Virus record (IMG/VR): IMGVR_UViG_3300008963_000727
Coordinates: 1 to 64,000 of that record
Strand: one strand, 5' to 3'
Length of the DNA stretch: 64,000 nucleotides
Origin: a virus
The translations under genes were made by a program, and so were the position numbers. Below are positions 21,537 to 38,095 of the stretch, piece by piece. Within the stretch, counting starts at the first letter, position 1, and each line of letters begins with the position of its first letter. Below the pieces are notes generated by a model. The model saw nothing but the letters and a program-made list of their open reading frames with translations, made no database searches and had not been told where the DNA came from.

Positions 21537-22121
21537 ATGCCTAATTTAGTGCCCATTGTTTTGGAAAAAACTGCTCAAGGCGAGCGTAGTTACGACATTT
21601 ATAGTCGGTTATTAAAAGACCGAATCATAATGCTTGATACAGAGGTTAGTGAACATTCTGCAAGCCTTATTGTGGCACAAATGCTATTCTTAGAGTCAGA
21701 AGATCCAGACTCTGATATTCTGTTTTACATCAACTCCCCCGGCGGCAGCGTCACTGCTGGCATGAGCATTTACGACACGATGCAGTTTATTAAATGCGAT
21801 GTTTCAACTATTGTTATAGGGCAAGCCGCGAGTATGGGGTCATTGTTATCTGCAAGTGGAACAGCAGGGAAAAGAAAGATTCTGCCTCACGCTCGGCATA
21901 TGATCCATCAACCATTGGGCGGTGCGTCAGGGCAAGCATCAGATGTAGAAATACAAGCCAAAGAATTACTTCGCTGGAAAACAATTCTTACGGGCGTGTA
22001 TGCTAAGCATACTGGCAAGGATGTAGAAGCACTTCAGGCTGATATGGAACGAGATAACTTCATGGGTGCACAAGAGTCAATTGATTATGGCTTGGCTGAC
22101 GAATTAATTTATAATAGATAA
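21537..22121 (+). CDS. clpP: ClpP, serine protease subunit
   Basis: 194 residues, full length for mature-type ClpP. The catalytic triad is intact: Ser99 in GQAASMGS, His124 in RHMIHQP and Asp173 in MERDNFM. Hydrophobic substrate-binding motif [16 protein letters not shown] is present. It forms the tetradecameric chamber fed by ClpX or ClpA. The phage also carries ClpX (5020) and ClpS (7105), so a complete phage-specific protease is possible. Good AGAGGAAA site and its own transcription unit after a strong terminator. Confidence 0.96.
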
Positions 22122-22184: not shown

Positions 22185-22676
22185 ATGTGTTTACTTAAAA
22201 ATTGTCTTATCACTGCAGTACTTGTTGCCGCCATGGTCCTCTTTGGCGGTACAGTTTTTGCATCCCAACTAACACATCAATTTAAAAATCCTTCTTTTTC
22301 AGGACAAGGATGGTCAAACCACGTCTTGTCTAATGAACAATTGAGGCACAATCGCGAGAAAGAAATTCGTGAACGTAAAGAAGCAGAGCAACGACGTTTA
22401 GAAAGAGAAATGGAAGATTCTATTCTCAAGAAGTTTGTGACTAACATGGAATCAAGAATTTACGCCACTTTGTCAAAACAAATGGTAGACAATATGTTTA
22501 CAAAATGTGAGGAAGGGGATGAATCTTGTACTCAGCCTGACGGTGGGTCTACGGAAATAGAAGGATCCACTATTACTTGGAATAGATCTGAATCAGGTGC
22601 TATTACACTTACTGTAGATGGACCAGAGGGCTTTACAGAAATAGATATACCCGGTCCCGGGGAATTATTATTTTGA
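22185..22676 (+). CDS. csgF: CsgF-like curli assembly factor
   Basis: 163 residues with a signal peptide (cut near VFASQ). The mature N-terminus SQLTHQFKNPSFSGQG matches the CsgF N-terminal peptide that inserts into the CsgG channel (E. coli: F-x-NPxFGG). The rest differs: a long charged helix (residues ~50-75, EREKEIRERKEAEQRR-like), then a small C-terminal beta domain with two cysteines. In curli systems CsgF sits on the outside of the CsgG pore and holds the nucleator. Overlaps csgG by 4 nt. Confidence 0.85.
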   Translation: MCLLKNCLITAVLVAAMVLFGGTVFASQLTHQFKNPSFSGQGWSNHVLSNEQLRHNREKEIRERKEAEQRRLEREMEDSILKKFVTNMESRIYATLSKQMVDNMFTKCEEGDESCTQPDGGSTEIEGSTITWNRSESGAITLTVDGPEGFTEIDIPGPGELLF

Positions 22677-23509
22677 TAAAGACACCTATAAATCTTGTAT
22701 TTTGTTTAGCGATTTTAAGTGGGTGTGCTGCAACTGGAGAAGATAGATTTCAATCTGAACCTGCAGATATACAACCTGCTCCTATGCAGGAAAAATTAGA
22801 TGATATCCCCGAGTTAAATGGACCAAAGATTACGATAGCAGTTTATGATTTTTCAGATAAAACAGGACAAAGACAACCCAATGAAAATATAGCAAGTTTA
22901 TCTACCGCAGTTACACAAGGTGCAGAGGTTTGGGTTATTAAAAGTTTACAAGATATCGGCAATAGTTCGTGGTTTGATGTTGTTGAGCGAGTAGGTTTAG
23001 ATAATTTAGTAAAAGAAAGACAACTTATACGAAATACCAGAGAAAATTATGGCGAAGAGAGCCGCCAATTAGACCCAATGCGATTTGCAGGGTTAATATT
23101 AGAGGGTGGTATTGTAGGTTATGATGCAAATGTTTTAACCGGAGGTGCAGGGGCAAGGTACTTGGGAATTGGGGTAGATACCGAGTACAGGGTAGATACA
23201 GTAACTGTTGTAATGAGGTTAGTAAGTGTTAATTCAGGAAGAGTTTTAACGTCTGTGGCAACAGAAAAAACAATATTATCAACAAAGACGGGGGCAAATT
23301 TATTTCGTTTTTTTGATATGGGAACAGAACTCGTTGAGACTGAAATGGGCATGACAGCCAACGAGCCTGTAAATTATGCTGTGAGGGCAGCAATAGAAGC
23401 CGGAGTAATAGAACTTGTTTATCAAGGAGCGGAAAAAGAACTCTGGCAGTTTAAAGGGAGCGACAAAAATGAGAGGGGCATTAACTCTAACGCTGATACT
23501 AATGGTTAG
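22673..23509 (+). CDS. csgG: CsgG-like curli secretion channel lipoprotein
   Basis: 278 residues, TTG start in TTTTGA overlap. Lipobox LSGCAA gives a lipid anchor. CsgG signatures follow: ITIAVYDFSDKTGQRQP, STAVTQGAEVWVIKSL, ERVGLDNLVKERQLIR, LILEGGIVGYDANVLTGG, GARYLGIG, EKTILSTKTGANLFRFFD and NEPVNYAVRAAIEAGVIEL. CsgG forms the nonameric outer-membrane pore that exports curlin. In the constriction loop the usual Phe (E. coli F56) appears as Leu (ASLSTAV), by my alignment. CsgE and the regulator CsgD are not in the window. Confidence 0.93.
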   Translation: MIKTPINLVFCLAILSGCAATGEDRFQSEPADIQPAPMQEKLDDIPELNGPKITIAVYDFSDKTGQRQPNENIASLSTAVTQGAEVWVIKSLQDIGNSSWFDVVERVGLDNLVKERQLIRNTRENYGEESRQLDPMRFAGLILEGGIVGYDANVLTGGAGARYLGIGVDTEYRVDTVTVVMRLVSVNSGRVLTSVATEKTILSTKTGANLFRFFDMGTELVETEMGMTANEPVNYAVRAAIEAGVIELVYQGAEKELWQFKGSDKNERGINSNADTNG

Positions 23510-24155
23510 TATGGCATGGGCAAATGAAATATATGTGGATCAGATTGGTGATAATCTTGATCTTGATATCACACAAGATGGCACAGATAACGTTGCAGGT
23601 ACTTCAGAAGAACCAATGGTACTGAATGGCGATGATATGACTTTTGACATAGATCAGATAGGCGATAACAATATTATTGCAGCAACTATCAATGGTAATA
23701 CCTACACAGGTACTATTAGCCTTACTGGCAACAACAACAATGTTGATCTTGCTTGTGATAGTGTTGATGCAGTTCAATGTGAAACTGTGACAGCAGATAT
23801 TACAGTTAATGGTGATGGTGCAGACATAGATCTTCGCATAGGCGAAACTGCGGATGCTTCCGATCTTGTAGCAACATTCACAGTAGACGGTGATGCGAAC
23901 GTGATTGACGCTGAAGTAGACGGTGTAGATGCTGATGCTACTGTGGTGATTGACAACAGTAGCAGTCTTGCAGGTGGCAATACTGTTAATGTTGATATGG
24001 ATGGTGACGGTGATGTCAACGGACATTCACTCAATCTTGATATTACAGGTGGCGGCGGTGTTTATAACGTGACACAGAGCGGCATAAATGACAACACAGT
24101 GGATGCAACATTTGAAGGCGATAACGCTACTGTTGATATTGATCAGTCTGACTAA
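23469..24155 (+). CDS. Curlin-like (CsgA/CsgB type) amyloid repeat protein, major
   Basis: 228 residues from ATG 23469 with AAAGGGAG upstream; signal peptide ends near AWANE. The mature protein is made of short repeats with Q/I/G-D-N spacing typical of curlins: VDQIGDNLDLDITQDG, FDIDQIGDNNIIAA, YNVTQSGINDNTV. The middle is aspartate- and asparagine-rich with valine/isoleucine strands. It has two cysteines in the middle. The start overlaps csgG by 41 nt and the end overlaps fecR by 68 nt. Likely the exported fibre subunit; the highly acidic composition differs from E. coli CsgA. Confidence 0.82.
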   Translation: MRGALTLTLILMVSMAWANEIYVDQIGDNLDLDITQDGTDNVAGTSEEPMVLNGDDMTFDIDQIGDNNIIAATINGNTYTGTISLTGNNNNVDLACDSVDAVQCETVTADITVNGDGADIDLRIGETADASDLVATFTVDGDANVIDAEVDGVDADATVVIDNSSSLAGGNTVNVDMDGDGDVNGHSLNLDITGGGGVYNVTQSGINDNTVDATFEGDNATVDIDQSD

Positions 24156-25230
24156 TATTTCTGCACACGCCGCAATAGGTAGCGTGTCAGAAATATCAGG
24201 CTCGGGCGTGTTAGAACGTGAAGAGTCCGTTATTCAGGGTGAGCAAGGCACAGAAGTAGAATCCTACGATACTGCTGTGACCGAAAAAGGCAGGATGAGA
24301 ATTGACTTTGTGGATGATACTCGTGTTGATGTCACAGAGCATTCTCGTCTTGTTATAGATGAATTTGTGTATGATCCTGCTGCAAACGAAGGTTCACTTG
24401 CCCTAAAAATCAGTCTGGGTTCTGTCAAATATGCATCTGGACAAATCGCGAAAAAGCATCAGCAGAATGTAAAAATAGAAACGCCGTCCGCTACCATTGG
24501 TGTACGTGGTACTGACTTTGCGATGGTAGTAGATGAAATAGGAGGCTCCACAGTCACATTATTGCCTTCATGCAGAATAGTGAATCCCAGAGAACCCGCA
24601 CAATGTTTTGTGGGTGAAATAACTGTTGAATCCGATGCGGGTATGGTTGTAATGAATGAAGCATTTCAAACTACAGTAATAGAAACAGGAAATAAGCCAC
24701 CATCTAAGCCGTTGGTGCTTGATATAGACCCATCACAATTAAACAGTATGTTGATTGTGAGAAAAGAATCCAACTATGACTTGACTGCAAGAGAGTTGCA
24801 AGAACAGGCAGATGCGTTGGACGTGGATTATCTTGAGTTTGATGAATTAGATGAGGATAGTTTGCAAGAAACAATTGATGGAATATGGAATACAGAATTA
24901 GGTGATACTGCAGATATATTAAAAGTTGATATATTTGATATTATGCAAAATCTTCGTAATAACGTTAATTCCGCACTTGCAAATCAATTAGATAACCAAT
25001 ATGTGTTTGGAGACAGGCCAGAGGGATTAGATCCAGAAACTGGTATATTCTTTCAAGCCCCGCCACCAGAATTTACAGTAAGAAGAAAAGATGAAGCGGG
25101 AAACACATTTGAACTTAAACTAAGTGAATCACATGGTTATTCAATAGACATTTTACAAGGAAATTTTATAAAATATGATTATCAAACTGGTATTGGCAAT
25201 AATCGTATTAGGATTGATCAAAGTCGCTAA
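24088..25230 (+). CDS. FecR-domain exported protein
   Basis: 380 residues from ATG 24088. The first 28 codons give a good signal peptide (ITLLLILISLTNISAHA) although they also code, in another frame, for the end of the curlin. The mature part starts IGSVSEISGSGVLEREE and contains the FecR core: a beta-rich stretch with RMRIDFVDDTRVDVTEHS, and IETPSATIGVRGTDFAM, the FecR hallmark. The C-terminal half is acidic and helical. FecR domains outside iron uptake commonly accompany sensor proteins and curli-type systems; here it probably senses or binds an envelope partner of the cyclase at 25526. Confidence 0.88.
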   Translation: MTTQWMQHLKAITLLLILISLTNISAHAAIGSVSEISGSGVLEREESVIQGEQGTEVESYDTAVTEKGRMRIDFVDDTRVDVTEHSRLVIDEFVYDPAANEGSLALKISLGSVKYASGQIAKKHQQNVKIETPSATIGVRGTDFAMVVDEIGGSTVTLLPSCRIVNPREPAQCFVGEITVESDAGMVVMNEAFQTTVIETGNKPPSKPLVLDIDPSQLNSMLIVRKESNYDLTARELQEQADALDVDYLEFDELDEDSLQETIDGIWNTELGDTADILKVDIFDIMQNLRNNVNSALANQLDNQYVFGDRPEGLDPETGIFFQAPPPEFTVRRKDEAGNTFELKLSESHGYSIDILQGNFIKYDYQTGIGNNRIRIDQSR

Positions 25231-25501
25231 TGCGGATGAAATTGATATCCTTCAACAAGGCAATGATTTTGAACTTTCTGTTCTACAATCATCTGGAGAT
25301 AACTTTTTACAAGGTAGCGTTGTAGGAGATAACCACTCTATAACCTCTGAGCAATCTGGGAGTTCTTCTGCATCGTTTGATTTAACGAATTCTGGCGGTG
25401 GTGTTAATTTAAATATTCAACAAAATGACAATGATTCTGTATCCGTGACTAAAATTTGCACAGACCCCGCTGGGTGTTCTGTTTCTATTAATCAAAATTA
25501 A
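25175..25501 (+). CDS. Second curlin-like protein, minor
   Basis: 108 residues with a signal peptide (IIKLVLAIIVLGLIKVANA). The mature part has curlin-type repeats: IDILQQGNDFELSVLQS, GDNFLQGSVVGDNHSITS, LNIQQNDNDSVSV, SVSINQN. It has two cysteines in KICTDPAGCSV. It starts inside fecR (56 nt overlap). The short size suggests a nucleator (CsgB-like) or a capping subunit; inference. Confidence 0.78.
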   Translation: MIIKLVLAIIVLGLIKVANADEIDILQQGNDFELSVLQSSGDNFLQGSVVGDNHSITSEQSGSSSASFDLTNSGGGVNLNIQQNDNDSVSVTKICTDPAGCSVSINQN

Positions 25502-25513
25502 TAATACACGAAC

Positions 25514-25521
25514 ATAAATAT
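25514..25521 (+). promoter_or_regulatory. T4-type late promoter of the CHASE2 cyclase
   Basis: ATAAATAT at 25514-25521 followed by four bases and the ATG at 25526. A leaderless late transcript is expected. Confidence 0.65.
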
Positions 25522-25525
25522 CCCA

Positions 25526-27580
25526 ATGAAGTGGATAACTCATTGGACAACGGCTCTCATAACCTTAATCTTAATTCTATCTATACACTACAGTGATGGG
25601 TTTATCACCGAGACGCTTCGCCTTAAACAATTTGACCTACTACAACAAACCGATCCCGTTCAAGTTTCCAAAGACATTGGCGTTGTTACTATTGATGAGG
25701 ATGCAATAGAACGATATGGACAATGGCCTTGGAGCAGGGAAACTATAGCAGATATAATATGGCAGTTGAGAAAAGATGGGGCAGGTGTAATTGTACTTCC
25801 TATTTTATTTTCAGAAATTGACAGGTTAGGGGGTGATGAGTATCTTGCTGAAACCCTTGAAAACAACAGCATAGTAATATCACAAACAGGCACACAGAGG
25901 TATAGTCAAAACTCTGTTCCAAGAGGCATCGCAAAAATAGGCGAACCTGTGCCCTATCTATTCCAATGGCAAGGCGTTTTGGGTCCTATTCCAGAGCTAG
26001 GAAAAGCAGCAGATGGTGTGGGCGTTATCAATACAGTTCCTGAGATAGACGGCGTTGTTCGCAGAGTGCCACTTCTTATGCGAGTAGAAGACGAGGTGTT
26101 TCCCTCTTTGGGAGTAGAAGTTATTAGAGTAGCAACAGGCCAACCATCTTATCAAGTAAAAGAATCTGGATCGGGAATAGAGGCAGTCCGAGTTCCCGGG
26201 TTTCCCATAATAAACACAGACCCCAATGGAAGAATATGGTTACGATGGAATAAAAAATTCCCCACCATATCTGCAGCAGAATCTGACTTTTCAGAGTTTC
26301 AAGGCAAAACTGTAATCATTGGTGCTCAAGCCGCAGGGATAAGTGGTATCATAGCCTCCCCAACAGGACCAAGATATAATTACGAACCCGCAGCAGTAAC
26401 TTTACAAACACTTATTGACGGCGAACAAATTGAGCGTCCTTACTGGGCATTTCAAGCAGAACTTGCATCTACTCTTGCGTTAGGCTTGGTGGTTATTGTT
26501 CTTGGAAGATTCACGCCTTATTGGGTAGTGGGTATAGGAATGATTGCACTTAGTGCCACACTTGTATTCGCTGTAGATTATGCTTGGTCTAACTATTTGT
26601 ACATGCTTGATGGTACAATGCCTCTTGCTGCATTAATTCTTGTTGGATTACACTCAGTATTTCTTCGCTTTGTGAAAGAATTTAAAGAAAAACAAGCAAT
26701 TAAAAAGCAATTTTCTGGATATGCTTCCCCACAAGTTGTAAAACTACTTCAGACCAATCCTGATTTAATCAAACACGGCACAAAAAAGAAAATCACAACC
26801 GTAATGACTGATCTCCGAGGATTTACTCCTCTAAGTGAAAGTTTTGGTGATGATGTTCAAGGTTTGACGCGTATGATGAACTCATATATGGATGCAATAT
26901 CCAAGCCCGTTCTTGAAAGTAATGCCATGATTATCAAGTACATTGGTGATGCAACCATGCATATTCACAATGCACCGATAGATGACGATATGCATGCTAC
27001 AAACGCTGTATCCACCGCATTAAAGATGTTATCTGCAGTTGATCGGTTCAATGAGCATTTGACAGAACAAAATAAACCACAAATTGGAATGGGTGTAGGA
27101 ATTAATACTGGTAAAGCCTATATGGGAGAAATTGGTAGTACTCAGCGTCACAGTTATGATGTATTGGGTGATAGTGTTAATGTTGCCGCTCGTTTAGAAG
27201 GACAATCAAAGTCCTATGGCGTAAGAATAGTCACAGGTTCTGAAACCGCTCATTTAACATACAAACAGTTTTTCTATCTGGAGTTAGATAAAATAGCAGT
27301 AAAAGGAAAGAGCAAACCGTTAAAAATTTACACGGTATTAGAACACGCCGAAAATACACCTGACGAATATTTTGATGCAAGAGAAAAGCATGATCGTATG
27401 TTAGAGATGTATCGCATTAAAAACTTTGATGAAACAATTACATTATGCAATGAGTTGTGTGGAAGTTTTGATGGTGCCATGGATGCTTATTATGATTTGT
27501 GGATAGAGCGTTGTAAATTTATGCTTGCCCAAGATTTGCCATCTGATTGGGATGGCACATTCACAGCAACCAGCAAATAA
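25526..27580 (+). CDS. CHASE2-domain class III adenylate/guanylate cyclase
   Basis: 684 residues: one N-terminal membrane helix, an extracytoplasmic CHASE2 domain (about residues 40-305, with DIGVVTIDEDAIERYGQWPW), three more membrane helices (~310-385) and a cytoplasmic class III catalytic domain (~415-605). The metal aspartates D429 (MTDLRGFT) and D475 (KYIGDATM), and SYDVLGDSVNVAARLEG with the transition-state Asn and Arg, are intact. The K and D of the substrate pocket favour ATP. It would make cAMP in the host in response to an envelope signal. Bacterial genes of this type often follow a fecR gene, as here. Confidence 0.92.
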   Translation: MKWITHWTTALITLILILSIHYSDGFITETLRLKQFDLLQQTDPVQVSKDIGVVTIDEDAIERYGQWPWSRETIADIIWQLRKDGAGVIVLPILFSEIDRLGGDEYLAETLENNSIVISQTGTQRYSQNSVPRGIAKIGEPVPYLFQWQGVLGPIPELGKAADGVGVINTVPEIDGVVRRVPLLMRVEDEVFPSLGVEVIRVATGQPSYQVKESGSGIEAVRVPGFPIINTDPNGRIWLRWNKKFPTISAAESDFSEFQGKTVIIGAQAAGISGIIASPTGPRYNYEPAAVTLQTLIDGEQIERPYWAFQAELASTLALGLVVIVLGRFTPYWVVGIGMIALSATLVFAVDYAWSNYLYMLDGTMPLAALILVGLHSVFLRFVKEFKEKQAIKKQFSGYASPQVVKLLQTNPDLIKHGTKKKITTVMTDLRGFTPLSESFGDDVQGLTRMMNSYMDAISKPVLESNAMIIKYIGDATMHIHNAPIDDDMHATNAVSTALKMLSAVDRFNEHLTEQNKPQIGMGVGINTGKAYMGEIGSTQRHSYDVLGDSVNVAARLEGQSKSYGVRIVTGSETAHLTYKQFFYLELDKIAVKGKSKPLKIYTVLEHAENTPDEYFDAREKHDRMLEMYRIKNFDETITLCNELCGSFDGAMDAYYDLWIERCKFMLAQDLPSDWDGTFTATSK

Positions 27581-27584
27581 ATAC
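27577..27584 (+). promoter_or_regulatory. T4-type late promoter
   Basis: ATAAATAC overlapping the cyclase stop codon and ending four bases before the ATG at 27589. Leaderless geometry. Confidence 0.65.
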
Positions 27585-27588
27585 TTTT

Positions 27589-27867
27589 ATGGAGTTTTTA
27601 ACACTTGTATCTGAAGTTGGATTCCCTATTGCTGGTGCACTGGTAGCAGGAGCATTTGTTTTTATATCGCTGAGATTTATACTTGCAAGTGTTACCGAAT
27701 CTCTAAACACTCTCAAAAACATTATATCTCAATTAGATAACCGTGTCTTAACAATGAACAATGATCTTGTAAAAATAGATGCACTTATGAGTTATGCATT
27801 AGGAGTTAAACCAAACATAGAGCGGATTGCTGCGAATGAGGGCAAGGATGATGCTCGCCGAGATTAA
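27589..27867 (+). CDS. Small holin-like membrane protein, BhlA/UviB-like
   Basis: 92 residues from ATG 27589. One membrane helix (GFPIAGALVAGAFVFISLRFI) preceded by SEVGFPI, and a helical tail SLNTLKNIISQLDNRVLTM. The layout (short N-terminus, YGFPI-like helix, coiled tail) resembles BhlA/UviB holin-like proteins. It is a paralogue of the next gene. Lysis role is inference. Confidence 0.68.
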   Translation: MEFLTLVSEVGFPIAGALVAGAFVFISLRFILASVTESLNTLKNIISQLDNRVLTMNNDLVKIDALMSYALGVKPNIERIAANEGKDDARRD

Positions 27868-27869
27868 AA

Positions 27870-28214
27870 ATGGATAACATTGTCAATGCCATTAATGAAT
27901 ATGGTTTTCCTATTGTTGCCGCAGTGGGAATGGGTGGGTTCATTTATTATATATGGCGATGGGTAACAGAAACCGTTGATCCAGTTATTGGCGAGACAAT
28001 GGGAACACTTATTAAGTTAGTAGATAGAGTTAGAATGTTGGATAACGATATGATTCGTCTCAACACAAAACTCGCAATGGTTTTAGAACATAAATCTCAT
28101 ATTGACCAAAATCTTTCAGCAGAACAGCGAGATGAATTAGAAGAAATTATTCATCGCTATCAATCACAAAGTGAAACATTTGATTCTACTGGAAACTCCC
28201 CCAAAAACAAATAA
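27870..28214 (+). CDS. Small holin-like membrane protein, paralogue of 27589
   Basis: 114 residues. NAINEYGFPIVAAVGMGGFIYYIW is the membrane helix with the same YGFPI lead-in as its neighbour; the tail DRVRMLDNDMIRLNTKL matches the neighbour's coil, then an extra C-terminal extension. Tandem duplication is likely. No amidase or other endolysin is visible nearby. Confidence 0.68.
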   Translation: MDNIVNAINEYGFPIVAAVGMGGFIYYIWRWVTETVDPVIGETMGTLIKLVDRVRMLDNDMIRLNTKLAMVLEHKSHIDQNLSAEQRDELEEIIHRYQSQSETFDSTGNSPKNK

Positions 28215-29192: not shown

Positions 29193-29277
29193 GCCCGGGT
29201 GGTGGAATGGGTAGTCACTGAGGATTTAAAATCCTTTGCCGCAAGGCGTGCGAGTTCGAGTCTCGCTCCGGGCACCA
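29193..29277 (+). tRNA. tRNA-Leu (TAA)
   Basis: 85 nt including CCA. Acceptor GCCCGGG with TCCGGGC, long variable arm (class II), anticodon loop TTTAAAA with TAA, T-loop GTTCGAGTC. Encoded CCA. Confidence 0.93.
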
Positions 29278-29286
29278 AATAAAAAT

Positions 29287-29328
29287 TCTGATGGTATTTT
29301 AAACTGTTTAAATACAATTGCCATCAGA
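29287..29328 (+). other. Long imperfect hairpin between tRNA-Leu and tRNA-Thr
   Basis: TCTGATGG (29287-29294) pairs with CCATCAGA (29321-29328) and the inside contains a further near-perfect AT-rich palindrome (GTATTTTAAAC with GTTTAAATAC). Possibly a tRNA processing element or small RNA. Confidence 0.5.
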
Positions 29329-29331
29329 CAG

Positions 29332-29360
29332 TTGCCGAGTTAATCGCTCGGCAATTTTTT
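29332..29360 (+). terminator. Rho-independent terminator after tRNA-Leu
   Basis: TTGCCGAG (29332-29339) / CTCGGCAA (29347-29354) followed by TTTTTT, ending exactly at the tRNA-Thr 5' end. Confidence 0.85.
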
Positions 29361-29434
29361 GCCCGGTTAGTTAAATGGTATAACCACGGTTTTGTAATCC
29401 GTTGTTGGGAGTTCGATTCTCTCACCGGGCACCA
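29361..29434 (+). tRNA. tRNA-Thr (TGT)
   Basis: 74 nt with CCA. Acceptor GCCCGGT with ACCGGGC, anticodon loop TTTGTAA, T-loop GTTCGATTC. The last pair of the anticodon stem is T-T. Confidence 0.9.
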
Positions 29435-29442
29435 ATACACTC

Positions 29443-29500
29443 GGCCTGTATCTCAGTTGGATAGAACCAGCCTTCTATAGTAAAGTCATTTGAACCAAAC
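29443..29500 (+). pseudogene. Degenerate tRNA-Arg (TCT) remnant
   Basis: A good 5' half (GGCCTGTATCTCAGTTGGAT, then AGAACCAGCC TTCTA) resembles a tRNA D-arm and anticodon arm with TCT, but the 3' half is lost: no T-arm or matching acceptor strand follows. Either a decayed gene or the target scar of a recombination event. Confidence 0.6.
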
Positions 29501-29512
29501 CCTCTTTAATAA

Positions 29513-29520
29513 CTAAATAC
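29513..29520 (+). promoter_or_regulatory. Late-type promoter
   Basis: CTAAATAC 24 nt before the GTG at 29544; one base from the window's late box. Confidence 0.45.
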
Positions 29521-29543
29521 CTTAATAAACATAGGATTATGAA

Positions 29544-30422
29544 GTGATAGTTACTGACCTATTTGAAGGTATTTCTGATATAATTTTTCATCGCACTGGA
29601 TTTGGAAATCTAAAACAAATTCTTGAAAAAGACCAATTTGAACTGCGTCCAACATTTGCTAAACCATCAGAACAAGAATCAACCAGACGAAAGACAGACT
29701 TGTACTTTATGTCTACTGCCAGAACAAAAAACAGCAAATATATTAGTGACAGTGGATCTCCAGTATTAACACTTGATGGTCAAAAACTAAAACAAAATTA
29801 TTCTGGTTATGGTATGGATTATTATGGCCCATCATGGAGAGAAGTCAGTGGTGGTGAATATGAGCAAGAAGATCGTGTTTTCTCGCAAAAACCTAACATA
29901 ACCAATGCCAAAAAATATATTCTAATGATAGAGTTAGTCATGGAGTTCAATGCTGGTCAAGCAGACAATATTTTTAAAATTTATAGCATGGCTAAAAAAA
30001 GCGGCATACCAATAAAATTTTATGATAGTAAAGAAGATAGAAACCTTGGTAAAAATGCATTATCAGAAAAGGCGGTAAGAGAGGAGTTAAAGCGAAATCT
30101 TGCTAATTTAGAAAAGCGTAGACCATACACTCCACCGAGAAAAGAAATGTATGTTGGTGACGCAGTTCCTGCTATATTTTTAGGATTAAAGTTTGACCCA
30201 GAAGATAACATTCCTGCAGATGCAAAAACCCGAATTGATAAATTTCTAAGAAAATGGCCGGGAATGGACAAAGAATCTGTGCGTGTAGATTTTCACAATG
30301 CAGTATCTGATAAAAAATACAGAAACTTGATGACTCAAATTGTCGCGTTTATGAAGAAAAATAATTTGCGAACGATTGATGATTTGGGCGAGTTTGTGTA
30401 TCAAAAATGGATAGATAGATAA
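29544..30422 (+). CDS. Protein with possible ADP-ribosyltransferase-like fold and capsid-targeting-like N-terminus
   Basis: 292 residues, GTG start (MIVTDLFEGISD). The next segment FHRTGFGNLKQILEKDQF, then FMSTARTKNS and YEQEDRVFS, resembles the order of strands and the E-x-E/D element of ART-type folds, but no motif is conclusive. The first 12 residues (hydrophobic-acidic, TDLFEG) recall T4 capsid-targeting N-termini such as that of Alt, an injected ART. So an injected host-modifying enzyme is possible; low certainty. Its stop overlaps the ATG of the cysteine-protease-like gene. Confidence 0.6.
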   Translation: MIVTDLFEGISDIIFHRTGFGNLKQILEKDQFELRPTFAKPSEQESTRRKTDLYFMSTARTKNSKYISDSGSPVLTLDGQKLKQNYSGYGMDYYGPSWREVSGGEYEQEDRVFSQKPNITNAKKYILMIELVMEFNAGQADNIFKIYSMAKKSGIPIKFYDSKEDRNLGKNALSEKAVREELKRNLANLEKRRPYTPPRKEMYVGDAVPAIFLGLKFDPEDNIPADAKTRIDKFLRKWPGMDKESVRVDFHNAVSDKKYRNLMTQIVAFMKKNNLRTIDDLGEFVYQKWIDR

Positions 30423-30943
30423 TGGTTAAAATTTTTGAAGTTGAAAACAACAATACAAATACAATCGAAAATATTATAAAAATTGCACAAAACATATTTG
30501 GCACTGATAATCTTAGCAGTGGCAACTGTGGAAATTTTGCGTTAGCATTAGGTAAAATTCTTAAAGAAAAAGGCTTAAATCCAAAACTTGCTTTTACATT
30601 CAGAGAAGTAGATGATCTTACAAGCACCGAAATATCTAATCAAGGTACTCAAACTATCAGCAAAACAACTGTGTCCACTGAAACTATAGATGATGTTATT
30701 AACGCAGAAACTGATATCTATCATATTATTTTAAAAGTAAATGGGCAGTATTACGATGGCACAGGAAAAACAAACACAGACGAATTATTAGATATGGCAG
30801 ATGATCAATATGATGATTATTATCCGGGATTTTTTGATAATATCGAGTTGAATGACCCGGCTATGTTAAAATTAATACGAACTGAAACCAACTGCCAAAT
30901 TCCAATGCAAACATTTTATCAAAAAATTAAAGAAAAAATTTAA
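30422..30943 (+). CDS. Papain/transglutaminase-like cysteine enzyme candidate
   Basis: 173 residues, ATAATG overlap with the previous gene. A Cys36 at the start of a helix (SSGNCGNFALALGKIL), His101 (IYHIILKVNGQYY) and Asp112 (YDGTG) appear in the order and context of papain-like or transglutaminase-like triads. It may cut or modify a protein, perhaps in partnership with 29544. No signal peptide. Inference from motif order only. Confidence 0.62.
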   Translation: MVKIFEVENNNTNTIENIIKIAQNIFGTDNLSSGNCGNFALALGKILKEKGLNPKLAFTFREVDDLTSTEISNQGTQTISKTTVSTETIDDVINAETDIYHIILKVNGQYYDGTGKTNTDELLDMADDQYDDYYPGFFDNIELNDPAMLKLIRTETNCQIPMQTFYQKIKEKI

Positions 30944-30976
30944 CATTCAAAACACAAGATAAATTATAGAGTCAAT

Positions 30977-31054
30977 TCCGGCGTGGCTGAGATGGTAAAA
31001 GCGGCTGACTGTTAATCAGCGTCATTTATGTAGGTTCGACTCCTACCGCCGGAG
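30977..31054 (+). tRNA. tRNA-Asn (GTT)
   Basis: Acceptor TCCGGCG with CGCCGGA, anticodon stem TGACT-GTTAATC, T-loop GTTCGACTC, discriminator G. CCA is not encoded (CATT follows), unlike the other tRNAs here. Confidence 0.9.
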
Positions 31055-31087
31055 CATTCATATCCTTTCTCAATCTCCCATATCTTA

Positions 31088-31095
31088 ATAAATAC
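31088..31095 (+). promoter_or_regulatory. T4-type late promoter
   Basis: ATAAATAC five bases before the ATG at 31101. Confidence 0.65.
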
Positions 31096-31100
31096 ACTGT

Positions 31101-31628
31101 ATGAAAATAAAAGATATCTTATCCGAGGATAAAGATCCACTTTCTCAGTGGAACAACCAAGATCCAGTAAATTATATTAAACACTTACAAAAAACTTTTG
31201 GCAAACCTGACGAACTAACAACAGAACGTGCAGTTTGGTACAACAAAGATGGATTCAAGCGTATTGAAGTGTTGGATGAATATATCCTTCATAGTTCACC
31301 AACCCCACATTACGATTTTGTTTATTCATATATTGATTTGGATATCCCACATGAACTCTCTGATGAATTTGCCAAAAGTTCAGAAAGCATCCTAATTGAC
31401 CACCTTAAGGGTGAAGTGGGTGGACGCTGTGCTACACTTACTGCTAATGCGGTAACGCTGCAATATGTTATCGATGTTGTTACTAATAATGTTAAGCCTT
31501 CAAAAGCAGAATATGAAAAGCGTATTAAATCAATGAAGCGTATGTTTGAGAAAGGCGAAAAATATGAAAACGATTGGTGGCCTGACAAATCAAACGATGC
31601 TGACCCCAGCAATCCTTATTACAAATAA
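31101..31628 (+). CDS. Hypothetical phage protein with capsid-targeting-like N-terminus
   Basis: 175 residues, MKIKDILSEDKDPLSQW. The LSED-type N-terminus recalls capsid-targeting peptides. The C-terminus KYENDWWPDKSNDADPSNPYYK is acidic and aromatic. No catalytic motif. Probably a late product, from its promoter. Confidence 0.65.
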   Translation: MKIKDILSEDKDPLSQWNNQDPVNYIKHLQKTFGKPDELTTERAVWYNKDGFKRIEVLDEYILHSSPTPHYDFVYSYIDLDIPHELSDEFAKSSESILIDHLKGEVGGRCATLTANAVTLQYVIDVVTNNVKPSKAEYEKRIKSMKRMFEKGEKYENDWWPDKSNDADPSNPYYK

Positions 31629-31642
31629 TTGCACAATAATAC

Positions 31643-31671
31643 TTGACAAGCACTCCCCTCGCCTGTATTCT
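31643..31671 (+). promoter_or_regulatory. sigma70-like promoter
   Basis: TTGACA (31643-31648), 17 nt, TATTCT (31666-31671). Confidence 0.82.
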
Positions 31672-31704
31672 GCACACAAGTGTTAGTTAAAAAGGATGCT
31701 TGAT

Positions 31705-32034
31705 ATGTCAATGAACAAGATTATTCGTGAAAGAAAAGTCGCAGTGCTATACTCGCCGGGCTTTGGTGGCGGTTGGTTTTCTTGGAACACAGGCTGCCCA
31801 GAGTGCATCTTTGACCCTGAGATAGTCCAAATGGTACTTGACCGCGAACAAGCAGACGCAATTGAAGGGCGAGCACGAGAGAAGTGGAATCAGGGTGACA
31901 ACCATTTCTTCCCGGGCGGTGCAGATGCTCTTCAGGTGGCGTGGTTGCCCGAGGGTGTTCGTTTCTTTATCGAAGAGTATGATGGTTCAGAGGCAATAGT
32001 CACAGAACACGAAGTAAAATGGGTTACAGCATGA
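31705..32034 (+). CDS. Conserved phage protein of unknown function (FGxGWxSWN type)
   Basis: 109 residues from ATG 31705 (in-frame ATGs at 31696 and 31711 are alternatives; AAAGGA is best spaced for 31705). VAVLYSPGFGGGWFSWN followed by two cysteines (TGCPECIFDP) is a pattern I know from many unrelated phages, function unknown. Overlaps the next ATG by 4 nt. Confidence 0.75.
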   Translation: MSMNKIIRERKVAVLYSPGFGGGWFSWNTGCPECIFDPEIVQMVLDREQADAIEGRAREKWNQGDNHFFPGGADALQVAWLPEGVRFFIEEYDGSEAIVTEHEVKWVTA

Positions 32035-32270
32035 TCAAACAGCGTATTCAAGATTGTATATCTGGTTCAGGTTATCTTGAACGATACGGATCGCACCCGG
32101 GAACCTTACCGCTCATCGGCCCTGTCGTACTAGATGCGGTGGCTGGTTCAGAGCGAGGTTGGATGGGTAGTGTATTAGGTGCTGTTATGATGCTTGTGTT
32201 GTTTGGTGGCGTGTGGTTAATTGGAGCACATGATCGCGGCAAAGAACATCGTCTTCAACGCCGGGGTTGA
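32031..32270 (+). CDS. Small single-pass membrane protein
   Basis: 79 residues, ATGA overlap (MIKQRIQDCISGSGYLERYG). One helix near the C-terminus (MGSVLGAVMMLVLFGGVWLI) followed by a charged tail DRGKEHRLQRRG. Unknown. Confidence 0.65.
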   Translation: MIKQRIQDCISGSGYLERYGSHPGTLPLIGPVVLDAVAGSERGWMGSVLGAVMMLVLFGGVWLIGAHDRGKEHRLQRRG

Positions 32271-32295
32271 CAACTCAACTGTTAAAGCATATATT
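32267..32295 (+). promoter_or_regulatory. sigma70-like promoter
   Basis: TTGACA (32267-32272) overlapping the previous stop, 17 nt, TATATT (32290-32295). Confidence 0.8.
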
Positions 32296-32329
32296 GAAAT
32301 AACTTGAAATATACCAAGAGGATTTAAAA

Positions 32330-32506
32330 ATGGGATTTCTTGAAACACTTACAATTGTATTCATCGTACTCAAACTAACCGCAGTTATTGATTGGAGTTG
32401 GTTATATGTTTTCTCTCCTATCTTTGTTGCAGTCGGCATCTACTTTCTGATTTTTGCAACATACTTTGTTGTAGAACTACGATCTAAATTACGATCTATC
32501 AAGTAA
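32330..32506 (+). CDS. Small membrane protein, Fragile-X-F type phage family
   Basis: 58 residues with two hydrophobic segments. MGFLETLTIVFIVLKLTAVIDWSWLYVFSPIF matches the layout of the widespread phage proteins named transmembrane Fragile-X-F (VLKLTGVIDWSWWWVFAP). AGAGGA site. Function unknown. (Motif shown in parts: FIVLKLTAVIDWSWLYVF.). Confidence 0.75.
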   Translation: MGFLETLTIVFIVLKLTAVIDWSWLYVFSPIFVAVGIYFLIFATYFVVELRSKLRSIK

Positions 32507-32520
32507 TAGGAAAAGTAGTC

Positions 32521-32706
32521 ATGGTTGATATTGTAGATGATATTAGAAATGACCCAAGACAGTGCCCTGCATGTGAGCAGGGCATTATCTGTCCAATGAT
32601 TAAACAAGAAACCAGTGAGTATTTGGGGCGTATGATTTGTGATACTTGTGGGTCAGAGTTTAAAGTATCATACGAAAAGTATGCAGAACTTCAGGGTATA
32701 TCATGA
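32521..32706 (+). CDS. Small zinc-ribbon protein
   Basis: 61 residues. CPAC (residues ~18-21) and a later CDTC give four cysteines for one zinc; a CPM lies between. Might bind nucleic acid or a polymerase subunit. Overlaps the next ATG by 4 nt. Confidence 0.7.
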   Translation: MVDIVDDIRNDPRQCPACEQGIICPMIKQETSEYLGRMICDTCGSEFKVSYEKYAELQGIS

Positions 32707-32912
32707 GTGAAAATTCAATATTAAAAGCAAGAATAGACTCTTGCGAAAGGCGACAAACAGTAGCCGGAATATTAATAGCAATTGGTGTTGCAGCACAACA
32801 GTCAGGCAGTTTTTTTGATTGCTGGACAGTTGAGTATCTTGGGGTTGTTAAAATATTAGCTGGGTTGGCTGTTTTGACATATTCAATGTACCGTTCTGTT
32901 GTAGATTATTAA
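32703..32912 (+). CDS. Small two-helix membrane protein
   Basis: 69 residues with helices VAGILIAIGVAAQQSG and VVKILAGLAVLTYSMY and two cysteines (DSCERR, DCWTVE). Unknown. Confidence 0.65.
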   Translation: MSENSILKARIDSCERRQTVAGILIAIGVAAQQSGSFFDCWTVEYLGVVKILAGLAVLTYSMYRSVVDY

Positions 32913-32924
32913 TTTAAAAAAACA

Positions 32925-32953
32925 TTGACTGAGAAATCATTTACTGATAGTCT
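32925..32953 (+). promoter_or_regulatory. Promoter of the tRNA-Lys
   Basis: TTGACT (32925-32930), 17 nt, TAGTCT (32948-32953). TAGCAT/TAGTCT -10 boxes precede both promoter-bearing tRNAs. Confidence 0.72.
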
Positions 32954-32979
32954 ACACATATTGAAATAAGTTTTAAAAC

Positions 32980-33055
32980 GGGTGCGTAGCTCAGTTGGTA
33001 GAGCATCGGACTTTTAATCCGCTGGCCGGGGGTTCGAGACCCTCCGCACCCACCA
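32980..33055 (+). tRNA. tRNA-Lys (TTT)
   Basis: 76 nt with CCA. Acceptor GGGTGCG with CGCACCC, anticodon loop CTTTTAA, T-loop GTTCGAGAC. Confidence 0.95.
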
Positions 33056-33080
33056 TACATTAAAATAGGAAATAAAACAT

Positions 33081-33890
33081 ATGACATGTGGATGTGGCAG
33101 ATCACCAGACGGTTGTAGAGGTTGGCACAACCTCTCAGAAGAAGAATATCAGGTTGAGTATCAGCGGTTTCTGGCAGAAGAACAGGGACTGATGACTGTA
33201 ACCGAAGTAGAACATTATACTGATAATCTTTTTCGGTTTAGAGTGACAAAGCCAGACAACTTTGAATTTACTGCTGGCGACTTTACTATGATTAGTATTG
33301 ATGACGCTCCTAAACGTGCATATAGTATTACTTCAAGTCCTAGTGACGATTACTTAGAATTCTATAGTATCAAGGTTCCAGATGGTCCTCTTACTAGTAA
33401 GTTGCAGAACATTGTAGTTGGAGATACCGTTTATGTCAGTAACCAGCCAACGGGCAGTTTAATCCTTGATAATCTAAGCGATGGTAAAGACCTTTGGATG
33501 CTGGCAACAGGCACTGGTATTGCCCCATTTATTAGTTTGCTACGAGACGCCGCTACCAAGGAAAAGTATGAAAATCTTCACCTTGTTTGGAGTGTGAGAA
33601 CCGCTGATGAACTTGCGGCATATGATGAATTTCTAAAAGATGCAGGTGTAGATTATATTCCTGTTGTCACTCAAGATGGTACATGGGGTGGATTTACGCA
33701 GCGTATTACTGATTTGATTAGGAAAGGCATATTAATGACTGACGCTGCACCAGACACAGATAAAGTCATGCTTTGTGGAAACATGGATTTTAATGTAGAA
33801 ATTCGTGACATCCTAAAAAGCAAGAACTGGGTACAAGGTGGCAGAAAAACTCCCGGTTCATTTGTTCTTGAACGTGCATTCGTAGGATAA
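33081..33890 (+). CDS. Ferredoxin-NADP reductase-like flavoprotein with an N-terminal cysteine module
   Basis: 269 residues. The first ~30 are MTCGCGRSPDGCRGWHNLSEE, a Cys-rich module also seen in marine phage proteins and possibly metal-binding. Then an FNR fold: FAD-binding RAYSITSSPS (R-x-Y-S), a nucleotide site ATGTGIAPFISLLRD and CGN near residue 234, ending PGSFVLERAFVG, the bacterial FNR C-terminus. It would transfer electrons between NADPH and a ferredoxin or flavodoxin. With SufE it hints at Fe-S or redox metabolism carried by the phage. The fusion is unusual. Confidence 0.88.
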   Translation: MTCGCGRSPDGCRGWHNLSEEEYQVEYQRFLAEEQGLMTVTEVEHYTDNLFRFRVTKPDNFEFTAGDFTMISIDDAPKRAYSITSSPSDDYLEFYSIKVPDGPLTSKLQNIVVGDTVYVSNQPTGSLILDNLSDGKDLWMLATGTGIAPFISLLRDAATKEKYENLHLVWSVRTADELAAYDEFLKDAGVDYIPVVTQDGTWGGFTQRITDLIRKGILMTDAAPDTDKVMLCGNMDFNVEIRDILKSKNWVQGGRKTPGSFVLERAFVG

Positions 33891-33899
33891 CGATTTTAT

Positions 33900-33976
33900 T
33901 CGGGAATAGTTTAATTGGCAGAACGCTGGACTTTGAATCCAGAGATGACTCGGTTCGATTCCGTCTTCCCGAACCA
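33900..33976 (+). tRNA. tRNA-Gln (TTG)
   Basis: 77 nt with CCA. Acceptor TCGGGAA with TTCCCGA, anticodon loop CTTTGAA, T-loop GTTCGATTC. Starts 9 nt after the flavoprotein stop. Confidence 0.93.
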
Positions 33977-33978
33977 TT

Positions 33979-33987
33979 TATAAATAT
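33979..33987 (+). promoter_or_regulatory. T4-type late promoter
   Basis: TATAAATAT directly after the tRNA-Gln CCA, ending four bases before ATG 33992. Confidence 0.68.
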
Positions 33988-33991
33988 CAAA

Positions 33992-34414
33992 ATGATTAAT
34001 CCTAAACAATATATTACAGATAACAGAATCAAACTTCGTGGGTTTGGCCCACAGGGGGCACAGGGAGAAGAAAATAGAAAGCGTGGTGACCAGTTTATGA
34101 GAGAACTGATTGCCAACACGTCTCAGCACCCATTCAACAATAACGCCAGAATTATTGGCAATGCTCATGTAGTAATAGAATACGATGGTGACGGAGTTCG
34201 TATTAAAAATATTCAGTCTCATGAACCCGGTTCTGGTGCTGGCACAAGAGCACTTCAATATCTCATAAGATTGTCTGAAAAACACAAAGTACCACTCCAT
34301 TTGTATGCCAAGGGGTATGCATCAACCAAGACAAGTCAGTTAAAAAATTGGTATAAACGGTTTGGATTTGAGCCAGATGAGAGTGGTGCACAAGAAATGA
34401 CCCGCAAACCTTGA
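33992..34414 (+). CDS. GNAT-family acetyltransferase-like protein
   Basis: 140 residues. The acetyl-CoA loop is suggested by EPGSGAGTRALQYLIRLS (motif A, R/Q-x2-G-x-G/A), then PLHLYAKGY and LKNWYKRFGFEPDE, the usual GNAT ending. The N-terminal ~50 residues are divergent. The substrate is unknown. Confidence 0.72.
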   Translation: MINPKQYITDNRIKLRGFGPQGAQGEENRKRGDQFMRELIANTSQHPFNNNARIIGNAHVVIEYDGDGVRIKNIQSHEPGSGAGTRALQYLIRLSEKHKVPLHLYAKGYASTKTSQLKNWYKRFGFEPDESGAQEMTRKP

Positions 34415-34428
34415 TACGAGGGTTAATC

Positions 34429-34842
34429 ATGAATACCTTGGAAACATTTAATCATCTTGTTGGACCAGTTGAAAAGTTTGATGACTTGTTAGGTCATTGT
34501 ATTACTCACATTGATAAAAAGCATGATGAACTAAAATTGTATCTAAGCGATGCAGTATATGTTCATATGTATCATCAACAAGACTGCTGTGAAGATGTGT
34601 TTATTGAAGACGTTTGTGGTGACTTAGATGACTTAATTGGTTCTCCACTACTTCAGGCAGAAGAAGTCAGTAACCGTGATGACGAAGGCCCGCTAAATGA
34701 ATATGATGAATCATATACATGGACATTTTACAAATTCGCCACAAATAAAGGTTTTGTGACTATTCGTTGGTATGGGTCATCAAATGGGTACTACTCTGAG
34801 TATGTTGATGTAGAAGTTGTTGATGATTCTAAACGCAACTAA
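34429..34842 (+). CDS. DUF7448-like phage protein
   Basis: 137 residues from ATG 34429 with GAGGG upstream. DDLLGHCITHI, HQQDCCEDVFIEDVCGDLDDL and SYTWTFYKFATNKG, TIRWYGSSNGYYSE are the hallmarks of this beta-rich family, frequent in phages, function unknown. Paired cysteines in QDCCED. Confidence 0.82.
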   Translation: MNTLETFNHLVGPVEKFDDLLGHCITHIDKKHDELKLYLSDAVYVHMYHQQDCCEDVFIEDVCGDLDDLIGSPLLQAEEVSNRDDEGPLNEYDESYTWTFYKFATNKGFVTIRWYGSSNGYYSEYVDVEVVDDSKRN

Positions 34843-34880
34843 TATTGCGTATAAAAACTAAACGCAAACATATCTAACTG

Positions 34881-34908
34881 TTGACTTCTTTGTGGTAGTC
34901 TGTATAAT
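34881..34908 (+). promoter_or_regulatory. sigma70-like promoter
   Basis: TTGACT (34881-34886), 16 nt, TATAAT (34903-34908). Confidence 0.82.
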
Positions 34909-34945
34909 CGTACTCAGACTTAAGGCAAAGCAGAGGCAACAAGTC

Positions 34946-35098
34946 ATGAAAGAAACCATTCAGTCTTATATTGATGCTTGTGACAGCAATATTGCAAAGT
35001 ATATGCTCATTGAAGACAAAGAAGAGCGTGAACGGGCACTCGATGCAATCTATGTCATGAAAGCCGAATTTGAAAAAACCCTTGCAGAACTACAGTAG
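34946..35098 (+). CDS. Small helical protein
   Basis: 50 residues from ATG 34946 (MKETIQSYIDACDSNIAKYM) after AGAGGCAAC. An upstream reading would pass through the promoter. A charged coiled-coil. Same AGAGGCAAC ribosome binding region as the next gene. Unknown. Confidence 0.65.
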   Translation: MKETIQSYIDACDSNIAKYMLIEDKEERERALDAIYVMKAEFEKTLAELQ

Positions 35099-35110
35099 TA
35101 TTGATATACT
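35082..35110 (+). promoter_or_regulatory. sigma70-like promoter
   Basis: TTGCAG (35082-35087), 17 nt, TATACT (35105-35110), starting within the end of the previous gene. Confidence 0.65.
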
Positions 35111-35142
35111 ATCCTTGTTGGTTAAAAAAAGAGGCAACGAAA

Positions 35143-35568
35143 ATGGCTTACATCACTACCGAAGAAGTCCGTGCTATTCGCAATGAACTCAAGAACTGGT
35201 TCCCGACAATGAAGTTTTCTGTACGGAAAGATGATGGTCTTGCAGTTACTGTATCCATTCTTTCTGGTGATTGTGATTTTTCTGATATTGAACTACGTAA
35301 CTTCATCACTGGAGATATCGTCAACTTCAGTGGTTACATACAGGTCAACCACCATCATCTTTATAACTATGGGGATCATCAGTATCTTCTTGGTGAAATT
35401 CTTGATGTCATCAAGACTGCACCAGCAAATGCAGAAGGTGGTCGGGCATGGTATAACAACTCTGATGCCATGGTTGATTACTTTGACACTGCTTTTTACA
35501 TTCATATGGAAATCGGTCGTTGCAACCGCTCATATAAGTTTGTAGAAAGTAAAAAGAAGGCAGCATAA
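35143..35568 (+). CDS. LPD29-like domain protein
   Basis: 141 residues from ATG 35143. VRAIRNELKNWFPTMKFSV, then VNHHHLYNYG and DYFDTAFYIHMEIGRCNRSY follow the pattern of the large-polyvalent-protein domain 29 found in phages and mobile elements, where it is often part of multi-domain proteins. Here it stands alone. Its function, possibly anti-defence, is unknown. Confidence 0.78.
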   Translation: MAYITTEEVRAIRNELKNWFPTMKFSVRKDDGLAVTVSILSGDCDFSDIELRNFITGDIVNFSGYIQVNHHHLYNYGDHQYLLGEILDVIKTAPANAEGGRAWYNNSDAMVDYFDTAFYIHMEIGRCNRSYKFVESKKKAA

Positions 35569-35586
35569 AGAAACTTGGGATATTGT

Positions 35587-35609
35587 GTCGTGGCTGCAAT
35601 GGCCACGAC
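35587..35609 (+). other. Stable hairpin in a 154-nt untranslated leader
   Basis: GTCGTGGC (35587-35594) pairs with GCCACGAC (35602-35609). The 35569-35722 gap also has CCTC-AATTATTC-GAGG. It lies just after the LPD29-like gene and could be its 3' end or a processing element; no T-tract follows directly. Confidence 0.5.
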
Positions 35610-35708
35610 TTCTCAAAAAGAAAAACAAACCCACAATTTGGCCGTGCAGCATTGTACTTTTCTCCTCAATTATTCGAGGTTATTTTAGTGGGCACGGGTA
35701 TTTTTTCT

Positions 35709-35718
35709 CTATAAATAT
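35709..35718 (+). promoter_or_regulatory. T4-type late promoter (CTATAAATAT)
   Basis: CTATAAATAT, four bases before ATG 35723. Confidence 0.7.
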
Positions 35719-35722
35719 TCCA

Positions 35723-37332: not shown

Positions 37333-37334
37333 AA

Positions 37335-37769: not shown

Positions 37770-37775
37770 CATATA

Positions 37776-38009: not shown

Positions 38010-38067
38010 TATAATAAAGTTCTTTTACAATTTAATATTAAAATCGTAACTTAATTTAGTTAGAGCA

Positions 38068-38095
38068 GATCAGCAATAAATAATATTGTATGATC
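38068..38095 (+). promoter_or_regulatory. Late promoter inside a start-codon hairpin of the homing endonuclease
   Basis: GATCA-G-CAATA (38068-38078) pairs with TATTG-TA-TGATC (38084-38095); the ATG at 38090 lies in the 3' arm and ATAAATAA (38076-38083) in the loop side of the 5' arm. A late RNA starting at about 38089-38090 would be leaderless and free of the hairpin. Confidence 0.58.

Follow-up and report, generated by a model that had tools for sequence, protein, structure and literature searches.

Why do free-living ocean phages carry amyloid genes? The papers cited below leave this question unanswered, and it is raised again by the DNA analyzed here (64,000 nucleotides, the window), which comprises positions 1-64000 of the 194,522-base IMG/VR virus record IMGVR_UViG_3300008963_000727 (labelled G000; a linear record, possibly a fragment). 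The original prediction, made from the letters of the window, had placed a curli-type secretion set, a FecR protein and a CHASE2 cyclase in six open reading frames (ORFs) at 22185-27580. All six were identified there on the plus strand, mostly overlapping, and the operon runs on past 27580 to 28214, adding two small genes that we call TM1 and TM2. Sister phages keep TM1/TM2 and the cyclase, but in place of the curli genes they encode type I secretion components and an adhesin with FecR and cadherin domains. We think it rather probable that marine phages plug a signalling core (the FecR protein, the CHASE2 cyclase and usually TM1/TM2) into interchangeable exporters, the common function being to sense an exported surface protein and set host cyclic AMP (cAMP); curli would then, with similar likelihood, be one export option. 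The operon contains the following features.

22185-22676, plus strand: csgF, secreted CsgF homologue (Pfam CsgF 2.8e-11; phrog_35372 2.9e-34)
22673-23509, plus strand: csgG, outer-membrane secretion channel lipoprotein (Pfam CsgG 1.2e-54; PDB CsgG 1.4e-51)
23472-24155, plus strand: cur1, secreted protein with curlin repeats (from the ATG at 23472)
24088-25230, plus strand: fecR, exported FecR-domain protein (Pfam FecR 2.6e-10)
25138-25227, plus strand: conserved C-terminal tail of FecR, weakly curlin-like (alignment of 46 sequences)
25175-25501, plus strand: cur2, small secreted curlin-like protein (position and conserved C-terminus in relatives)
25526-27580, plus strand: CHASE2 class III adenylyl cyclase (Pfam CHASE2 2.3e-42; Guanylate_cyc 3.1e-22)
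27589-27867, plus strand: TM1, single-span membrane protein of 92 amino acids (aa) (phrog_18771 2.9e-28)
27870-28214, plus strand: TM2, paralogue of TM1, 114 aa (phrog_18771 1.3e-28)

Such a module had been thought new to phages, which proved wrong. It is discussed in PMC7029224 (2020), PMC9004378 (2022) and PMC9599517 (2022), the last of which extends the module by FecR, adenylate cyclase and a 'histidine kinase' and suggests a role in aggregation or in defence against superinfection. Curli genes were also described in the genome of a T4-like phage from metagenomes that is linked to marine Bacteroidetes (PMC7198788). In tblastn searches HTVC008M (Pelagibacter) and Melnitz (OM43) gave identities of 53% for CsgG and 46-57% for the cyclase. 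Both phages (KC465899, MZ577095-98) encode TM1-TM2 and csgF-csgG-curlin-fecR-curlin-cyclase, with the six core genes ordered as in the window and about 42-57% protein identity over the five long core proteins. However, their TM1/TM2 lie upstream of csgF, while those of the window lie downstream of the cyclase, and the remaining genome is unlike that of G000. The type VIII secretion system of HTVC023P-type pelagipodophages (PMC9599517) likewise clusters CsgF, CsgG, CsgA/B, FecR, a second CsgA/B and adenylate cyclase. Full-length PHROGs families exist for CsgF, CsgG, FecR and the cyclase, indicating that other phages carry these genes. Altogether, the module recurs in well over a hundred viral contigs, and the order CsgF-CsgG-Cur1-FecR-cyclase is kept in 90 of the 91 viral loci having all five core genes, an arrangement far beyond chance. 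Amino-acid change in the module was far below synonymous change in comparison with a sister phage (pN/pS about 0.14-0.44, with synonymous sites near saturation). Taken by itself, the window adds one more example of an established phage module, carried by a new phage lineage.

TM1 and TM2 are short single-span paralogues of the same family, TM1 with a near-invariant C-terminus EGKxDARRD. Nobody had named them, yet TM1 surpasses all other module proteins in conservation (median identity to the window 74%, compared with 60% for CsgG). Among 50,697 phage records they were detected only in HTVC008M and Melnitz, which are exactly the carriers of CsgF-CsgG-cyclase. A scan of IMG/VR with TM1 alone returned 80 loci, 71 with module genes in the flank and 79 with TM2; the remaining nine were mostly contig ends or very short contigs, none with CsgG. 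The position of the pair is lineage-specific. In 64 loci the pair precedes csgF, with a median of 23 bases between the end of TM2 and that gene, and in 68 loci the pair lies beyond the cyclase, the upstream position being found in 8/8 HTVC008M-like contigs and the downstream one in 9/9 contigs with a G000-type PolB. No cellular origin of TM1/TM2 was found: 399 Pseudomonadota genomes gave no convincing homologue (one weak match to TM1, E 4.5e-4). TM1 and TM2 are overlooked and hitherto unnamed components of the module and, in these searches, phage-specific.

One or two short 'histidine kinases' were reported directly before csgF (PMC9599517), the place where HTVC008M-type loci have TM1/TM2. HATPase_c was found near the module in none of 27 records and was absent altogether from G000 and from 25 of the 27, and TM2 relatives matched no kinase family. 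The published 'histidine kinase' is therefore probably TM1/TM2, the podophage genes being compared by their published description, and there was no support for TM1/TM2 as kinases. In one phage contig (locus L238) a 278-aa ORF (10301-11137) is inserted between TM1 and TM2; this locus has the cyclase, and the 6 kb beyond it hold radical SAM and other surface-type genes and no curli genes.

The exporter-swapped version was found in G025, a 148-kb record from a phage of the window's lineage. TM1, TM2 and the CHASE2 cyclase are present (locus L237), and CsgG is encoded nowhere in the record. The genes upstream of the cyclase encode an HlyD adaptor, a membrane protein, a protein of TolC type (OEP 3.5e-51) and a protein of 1299 aa that combines a FecR domain at its N-terminus with a cadherin domain. 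NCBIfam searches on relatives gave matches to type_I_sec_TolC (TIGR01844, 5e-31), type_I_hlyD (TIGR01843, 5.6e-45) and an LssB-type permease (TIGR03375, 5e-18, over the membrane part only). The permease is reduced to this membrane part (about 250 aa, no Walker A or signature motif); its nucleotide-binding domain was not found and no ABC ATPase motif was detected in G025, leaving a permease without a visible motor. The set resembles LapA/LssB-type type I secretion in having a TolC-type protein, HlyD, an LssB-type permease and a large adhesin without signal peptide, but differs in the truncated permease, the short HlyD and the tie to a CHASE2 cyclase and TM1/TM2.

A scan with the G025 cyclase yielded 307 relatives, and among 79 loci examined, 69 had TM1/TM2 and 40 had HlyD. 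All 79 showed phage-gene homologues in their flanks, some of the matches being HTVC008M module genes. The order FecR-adhesin, TolC, ABC-type membrane protein, HlyD, cyclase was kept in all non-curli loci with at least 7 kb upstream of the cyclase. These are seven distinct loci (L307/L308/L324, L313, L335, L343, L350, L354, L370), of which L324 is record G025, like L237, and the ABC-type gene of L354 was detected by tblastn and is not a clean ORF. Their FecR-domain adhesins are 1000-1700 aa long and often carry cadherin domains. TolC relatives were absent from the 50,697 reference phages, and no report of a type I version of the phage module was found in the open-access literature. Two loci (L333, L369) have a type I set whose cyclase faces an opposite-strand FecR-CsgG-CsgF in the same phage contig, with the two versions as neighbours.

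The constant partners were compared with cellular proteins. Searches with hidden Markov models gave Pfam matches above the cut-offs for FecR and the CHASE2 cyclase, as for CsgF and CsgG. FecR has a signal peptide (by inspection) directly before the FecR domain and no FecI-type cytoplasmic part; the operon encodes no sigma factor and no TonB receptor, so that neither the cytoplasmic part nor the adjacent fecI/fecA of an anti-sigma FecR is present. Its model fold matches the periplasmic FecR-type domains of PupR and BDI_1681 (E 9e-5 to 5e-4) and also resembles the cell-surface anchoring domain 5ix9 over 61 residues. The C-terminal tail GYxIxxxQ...YDYRLGxGxNxIxIxQ is common to all viral FecR, and a comparable strand closes Cur1, Cur2 and E. 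coli CsgB (...MAIRVTQR). The profile similarity of the tail to Cur1 (E 0.011) and to the Cur2 tail (E 5.5e-4) exceeded that of unrelated controls (0.23-0.8) and yet was weak, and we regard it as a lead and not as a result. The same test matched Cur1 to CsgF at 64%, mostly through the signal peptide, and thus yields false positives. As a true curlin repeat the tail is suggestive at most.

The catalytic residues D429, K471, D475, D545, N552 and R556 of the cyclase are all present, with the D/N typical of adenylyl cyclase, and both metal-binding Asp, the Lys and the transition-state Arg were kept in 99/99 phage cyclases. The pair K471/D545 predicts ATP as substrate and cAMP as the likely product. 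A phage-encoded cAMP receptor was rejected, since PF00027 was found in 0/9 records; the cAMP output would therefore need a host Crp-type protein.

FecR and CHASE2 are also paired in cells. In Campylobacterota there are FecR-CHASE2-cyclase clusters (AC-PDE-FecR-TPR, with AC for adenylyl cyclase and PDE for phosphodiesterase; PMC9239204), in Sinorhizobium the outer-membrane protein NsrA acts via the CHASE2 cyclases CyaK/CyaD (PMC7529298, PMC13001267), and Burkholderia BiofilmReg is a biofilm operon with FecR and a CHASE2-kinase (PMC5192318). These cassettes resemble the phage genes in pairing a CHASE2-domain enzyme, by genetics or by function, with an envelope protein that has a FecR domain or lies in the outer membrane. 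They differ in not being joined to a secretion channel, and the phage FecR is an exported protein of 380 aa with a curlin-like tail. Of the 20 CHASE2 genes in 14 Alphaproteobacteria with curli, 6 have a FecR gene as neighbour; among those six are the four closest to the Pfam CHASE2 model and the three closest to the phage cyclase. By contrast, FecR, cyclase or TM genes were found near none of 74 bacterial curli loci within the flank examined. This indicates that the phages joined two cellular cassettes. FecR and AC were already noted not to be part of bacterial curli operons (PMC9599517), and the present data show where the FecR-CHASE2 pairing occurs in bacteria.

With CsgG, CsgF and a curlin-repeat substrate all recognizable in its sequence, the module of the window would belong to the curli (type VIII) systems. 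The CsgF Pfam match of 2.8e-11 lies above the cut-off and the N-terminal neck peptide LTHQFKNPSFSG aligns with MTFQFRNPNFGG of E. coli CsgF; a PDB search with CsgF gave no match at E<1. CsgG has the lipobox LSGC (by inspection), and its Cys1 is kept in 131/132 viral CsgG. The constriction residues Y51/N55/F56 are N/S/L in the window. The original prediction had correctly read the Phe-to-Leu change. Position 56 is Leu in 127/132 CsgG of viruses and in 53/74 of Alphaproteobacteria; Leu is therefore the norm of this CsgG lineage, and F56L as a phage oddity was rejected. The absence of CsgE was borne out (PF10627 was missing from all nine records searched) and is typical of the lineage: the alphaproteobacterial curli type is likewise without CsgE (PMC9599517), and a module of that subtype can thus do without it. 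The curli operons of Alphaproteobacteria (Dueholm-type, without CsgC/D/E) have a CsgG 42-53% identical to that of the window, a weakly similar CsgF and commonly Leu56, but lack FecR, CHASE2 cyclase or TM genes nearby.

Of the two predicted curlin-like proteins, the large one stood and the small one stood by position and conserved C-terminus, without a Pfam match. Cur1 of the window by itself matched Curlin_rpt at 0.0018, just below the cut-off, while 36 of 45 members of its family matched (best 4.4e-7); by these profile matches the family is clearly classed as curlin. The ATG at 23472 is more likely its start than the TTG at 23415. The AlphaFold model of Cur1 is an all-beta repeat protein (pLDDT 82, pTM 0.78), and a fold search returned beta-helix proteins only, none significant. 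Cur2 has a conserved Cys pair and the C-terminus CTDPAGCSVSINQN; the pattern C-x5-GC-x-V-x-V-x-Q was present in 41 of 53 loci with a candidate. The second curlin varies across loci from about 108 to 490 aa. A 41% CsgG match was also found in the 1,499-base record OR851715.1 ('Salmonella phage S.Kent 1-2-1'), which is probably a mislabelled host fragment.

The window module sits in a true phage contig. The original prediction of a phage-like genome held: the contig encodes PolB, a baseplate wedge protein (2.7e-287), a baseplate hub/lysozyme and tail fibres, together with a Lon-like protease. The PolB of G000 is nearest to those of the PA5oct-like, SCTP-2 and Atu_ph07 jumbo phages. It is 63-69% identical to the PolB of G015, G017, G019, G023, G024, G025, G029 and G031, contigs that were all picked up via the module or TM1, and about 30% identical to those of HTVC008M and Melnitz. 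Of these relatives G019 is 237 kb, G023 203 kb and G024 357 kb in size. Outside the module, G000 had no terminase, capsid, portal, sheath, UvsX or gp41 match to HTVC008M. Among the contigs in which a terminase was found, those of G019, G022, G023 and G024 form their own group (55-85% mutual identity, about 33% to HTVC008M). Since PolB and terminase group apart from HTVC008M, the carrier is termed a large-genome ('jumbo-like') lineage. G000 as an HTVC008M-type genome was rejected, as the two have little in common outside the module; by these comparisons G000 belongs to a different lineage, a new one for a known module. The carrier phage is large and probably of marine origin.

Clean vertical inheritance by lineage was rejected. 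The CsgG and cyclase trees intermix both phage lineages, indicating that the module moved between them. Well-supported branches of the cyclase tree force at least three changes of TM position and the trees force 4-7 changes of lineage label, although long branches (L219, L247) make exact counts unsure. In the TM1 tree the L046 'TM1' entry is L046 TM2. All bacterial CsgG fell on one side of a supported branch (100/95).

We propose that, on infection, the phage would install a surface-export and envelope-signalling module. CsgG/CsgF would form an ungated (CsgE-less) outer-membrane channel exporting Cur1 and Cur2, which may assemble at the cell surface into curli-like fibres. The exported FecR-domain protein, with its curlin-like tail, could sit at or near the channel or fibre and signal its state to the CHASE2 domain, which the inner-membrane cyclase exposes in the periplasm, leading to cAMP that would act through a host receptor; TM1/TM2 may serve the cyclase or exporter as dedicated partners in the inner membrane. 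The FecR-domain protein and the CHASE2 cyclase, mostly with TM1/TM2, are constant in both versions, and a coupling of surface display to cAMP is the simplest reading of this. The constant core would be combined with an interchangeable exporter and surface protein, so that infected cells may display a phage-chosen fibre or adhesin whose presence FecR/CHASE2 couples to cAMP, with a presumed benefit in holding or shielding infected cells. For this mechanism as a whole, curli export with exchangeable exporters included, our confidence leans slightly to the positive side. Several observations weigh against it. No clumping was observed in Melnitz-infected cultures (PMC9004378), so strong aggregation is not favoured. 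CsgG lacks its CsgE gate, the similarity between FecR tail and curlin is weak, the transition-state Asn is Ser in 85/99 phage cyclases (the window has Asn), cAMP receptors are missing from the nine phage records, and 10 of the 79 type-I-version loci are without TM1/TM2 in the flank examined. The model of aggregation, biofilm, superinfection and cAMP in the original prediction is plausible, and had been put forward in print before under the terms 'sibling capture' or superinfection defence.

The same machinery might instead serve superinfection exclusion or grazing protection, not the capture of sibling cells, a reading that we consider less likely than not. Curli-type coats limit phage access in other bacteria, as argued in PMC9599517, and the variable second curlin would suit an arms race; sequence cannot distinguish the two benefits, however, and there is no known receptor or competitor. 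A role in lysis or its timing, extending a proposal made in PMC9004378, is unlikely. CsgG/CsgF would then be a gated pinholin-like channel, TM1/TM2 a holin/antiholin-like pair and the curlins accessory. The small single-span TM1/TM2 adjoin csgF in HTVC008M and Melnitz, and TM2 matches the holin family phrog_4898, but weakly (9.3e-4) and over just 21 residues, with no endolysin adjoining. The conservation of TM1 is unlike that of holins, curlins with intact repeats and the FecR-cyclase pair are retained in order, and the TM pair is found with type I secretion genes and an adhesin as well, where lysis makes little sense.

Still more improbable is the uptake of nutrients or cofactors (suggested in PMC7029224 and PMC9599517), with an ungated CsgG admitting larger molecules such as cobalamin or siderophores and FecR as an iron sensor. 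The missing CsgE gate (9/9 records) and the FecR homology agree with it, but CsgF, two exported curlin-like proteins and a cyclase would be needless, FecR has neither the anti-sigma cytoplasmic part nor a FecI/FecA partner in the operon, and in the type I version FecR is the N-terminus of an exported adhesin. An assembly chimera or host DNA is close to refuted. Module GC is slightly above that of the flanks (39.2% and 36.7%) and no terminase or capsid gene was recognized in the 194.5-kb fragment, but the module is found again, flanked by phage genes, in cultured phages and many contigs, G000 itself carries PolB, baseplate and tail genes, and G000 and G025 have 58 ORFs in common, PolB included. 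In the sister contig G015 (locus L014) the same module (58-84% identity) stands beside the same ClpP and two other common genes. A chimera was thus rejected, and the predicted combination of a curli-type export set with FecR and a CHASE2 cyclase in a phage stood. The addition of TM1/TM2 and of a second, unrelated export machine probably redefines the module and points to phages deliberately controlling the infected-cell surface and linking it to a second messenger. The cultured phages HTVC008M and Melnitz allow direct tests.

Some further features of G000 were recorded. A ClpP of cellular housekeeping type (NF001368 2.8e-91) is encoded directly before the operon (window 21537-22121), and other contigs of the lineage likewise have a ClpP gene, at several kb from the module. 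A promoter scan gave matches no commoner than chance. Six tRNA genes, for Leu, Thr, Asn, Lys, Gln and Met, are located 3' of the module (window 29193-38982); an Rfam scan gave tRNAs only. The PolB of G000 is apparently split (116336-120656, locus L006), with an ORF of 725 aa followed after about 1.1 kb by a second PolB match; a 367-aa radical-SAM-type ORF lies between the parts, while relatives have one intact PolB ORF of about 900 aa. A minus-strand cluster with radical SAM proteins (155643-166819) adjoins a Nol-like carbamoyltransferase gene (154025-155530).

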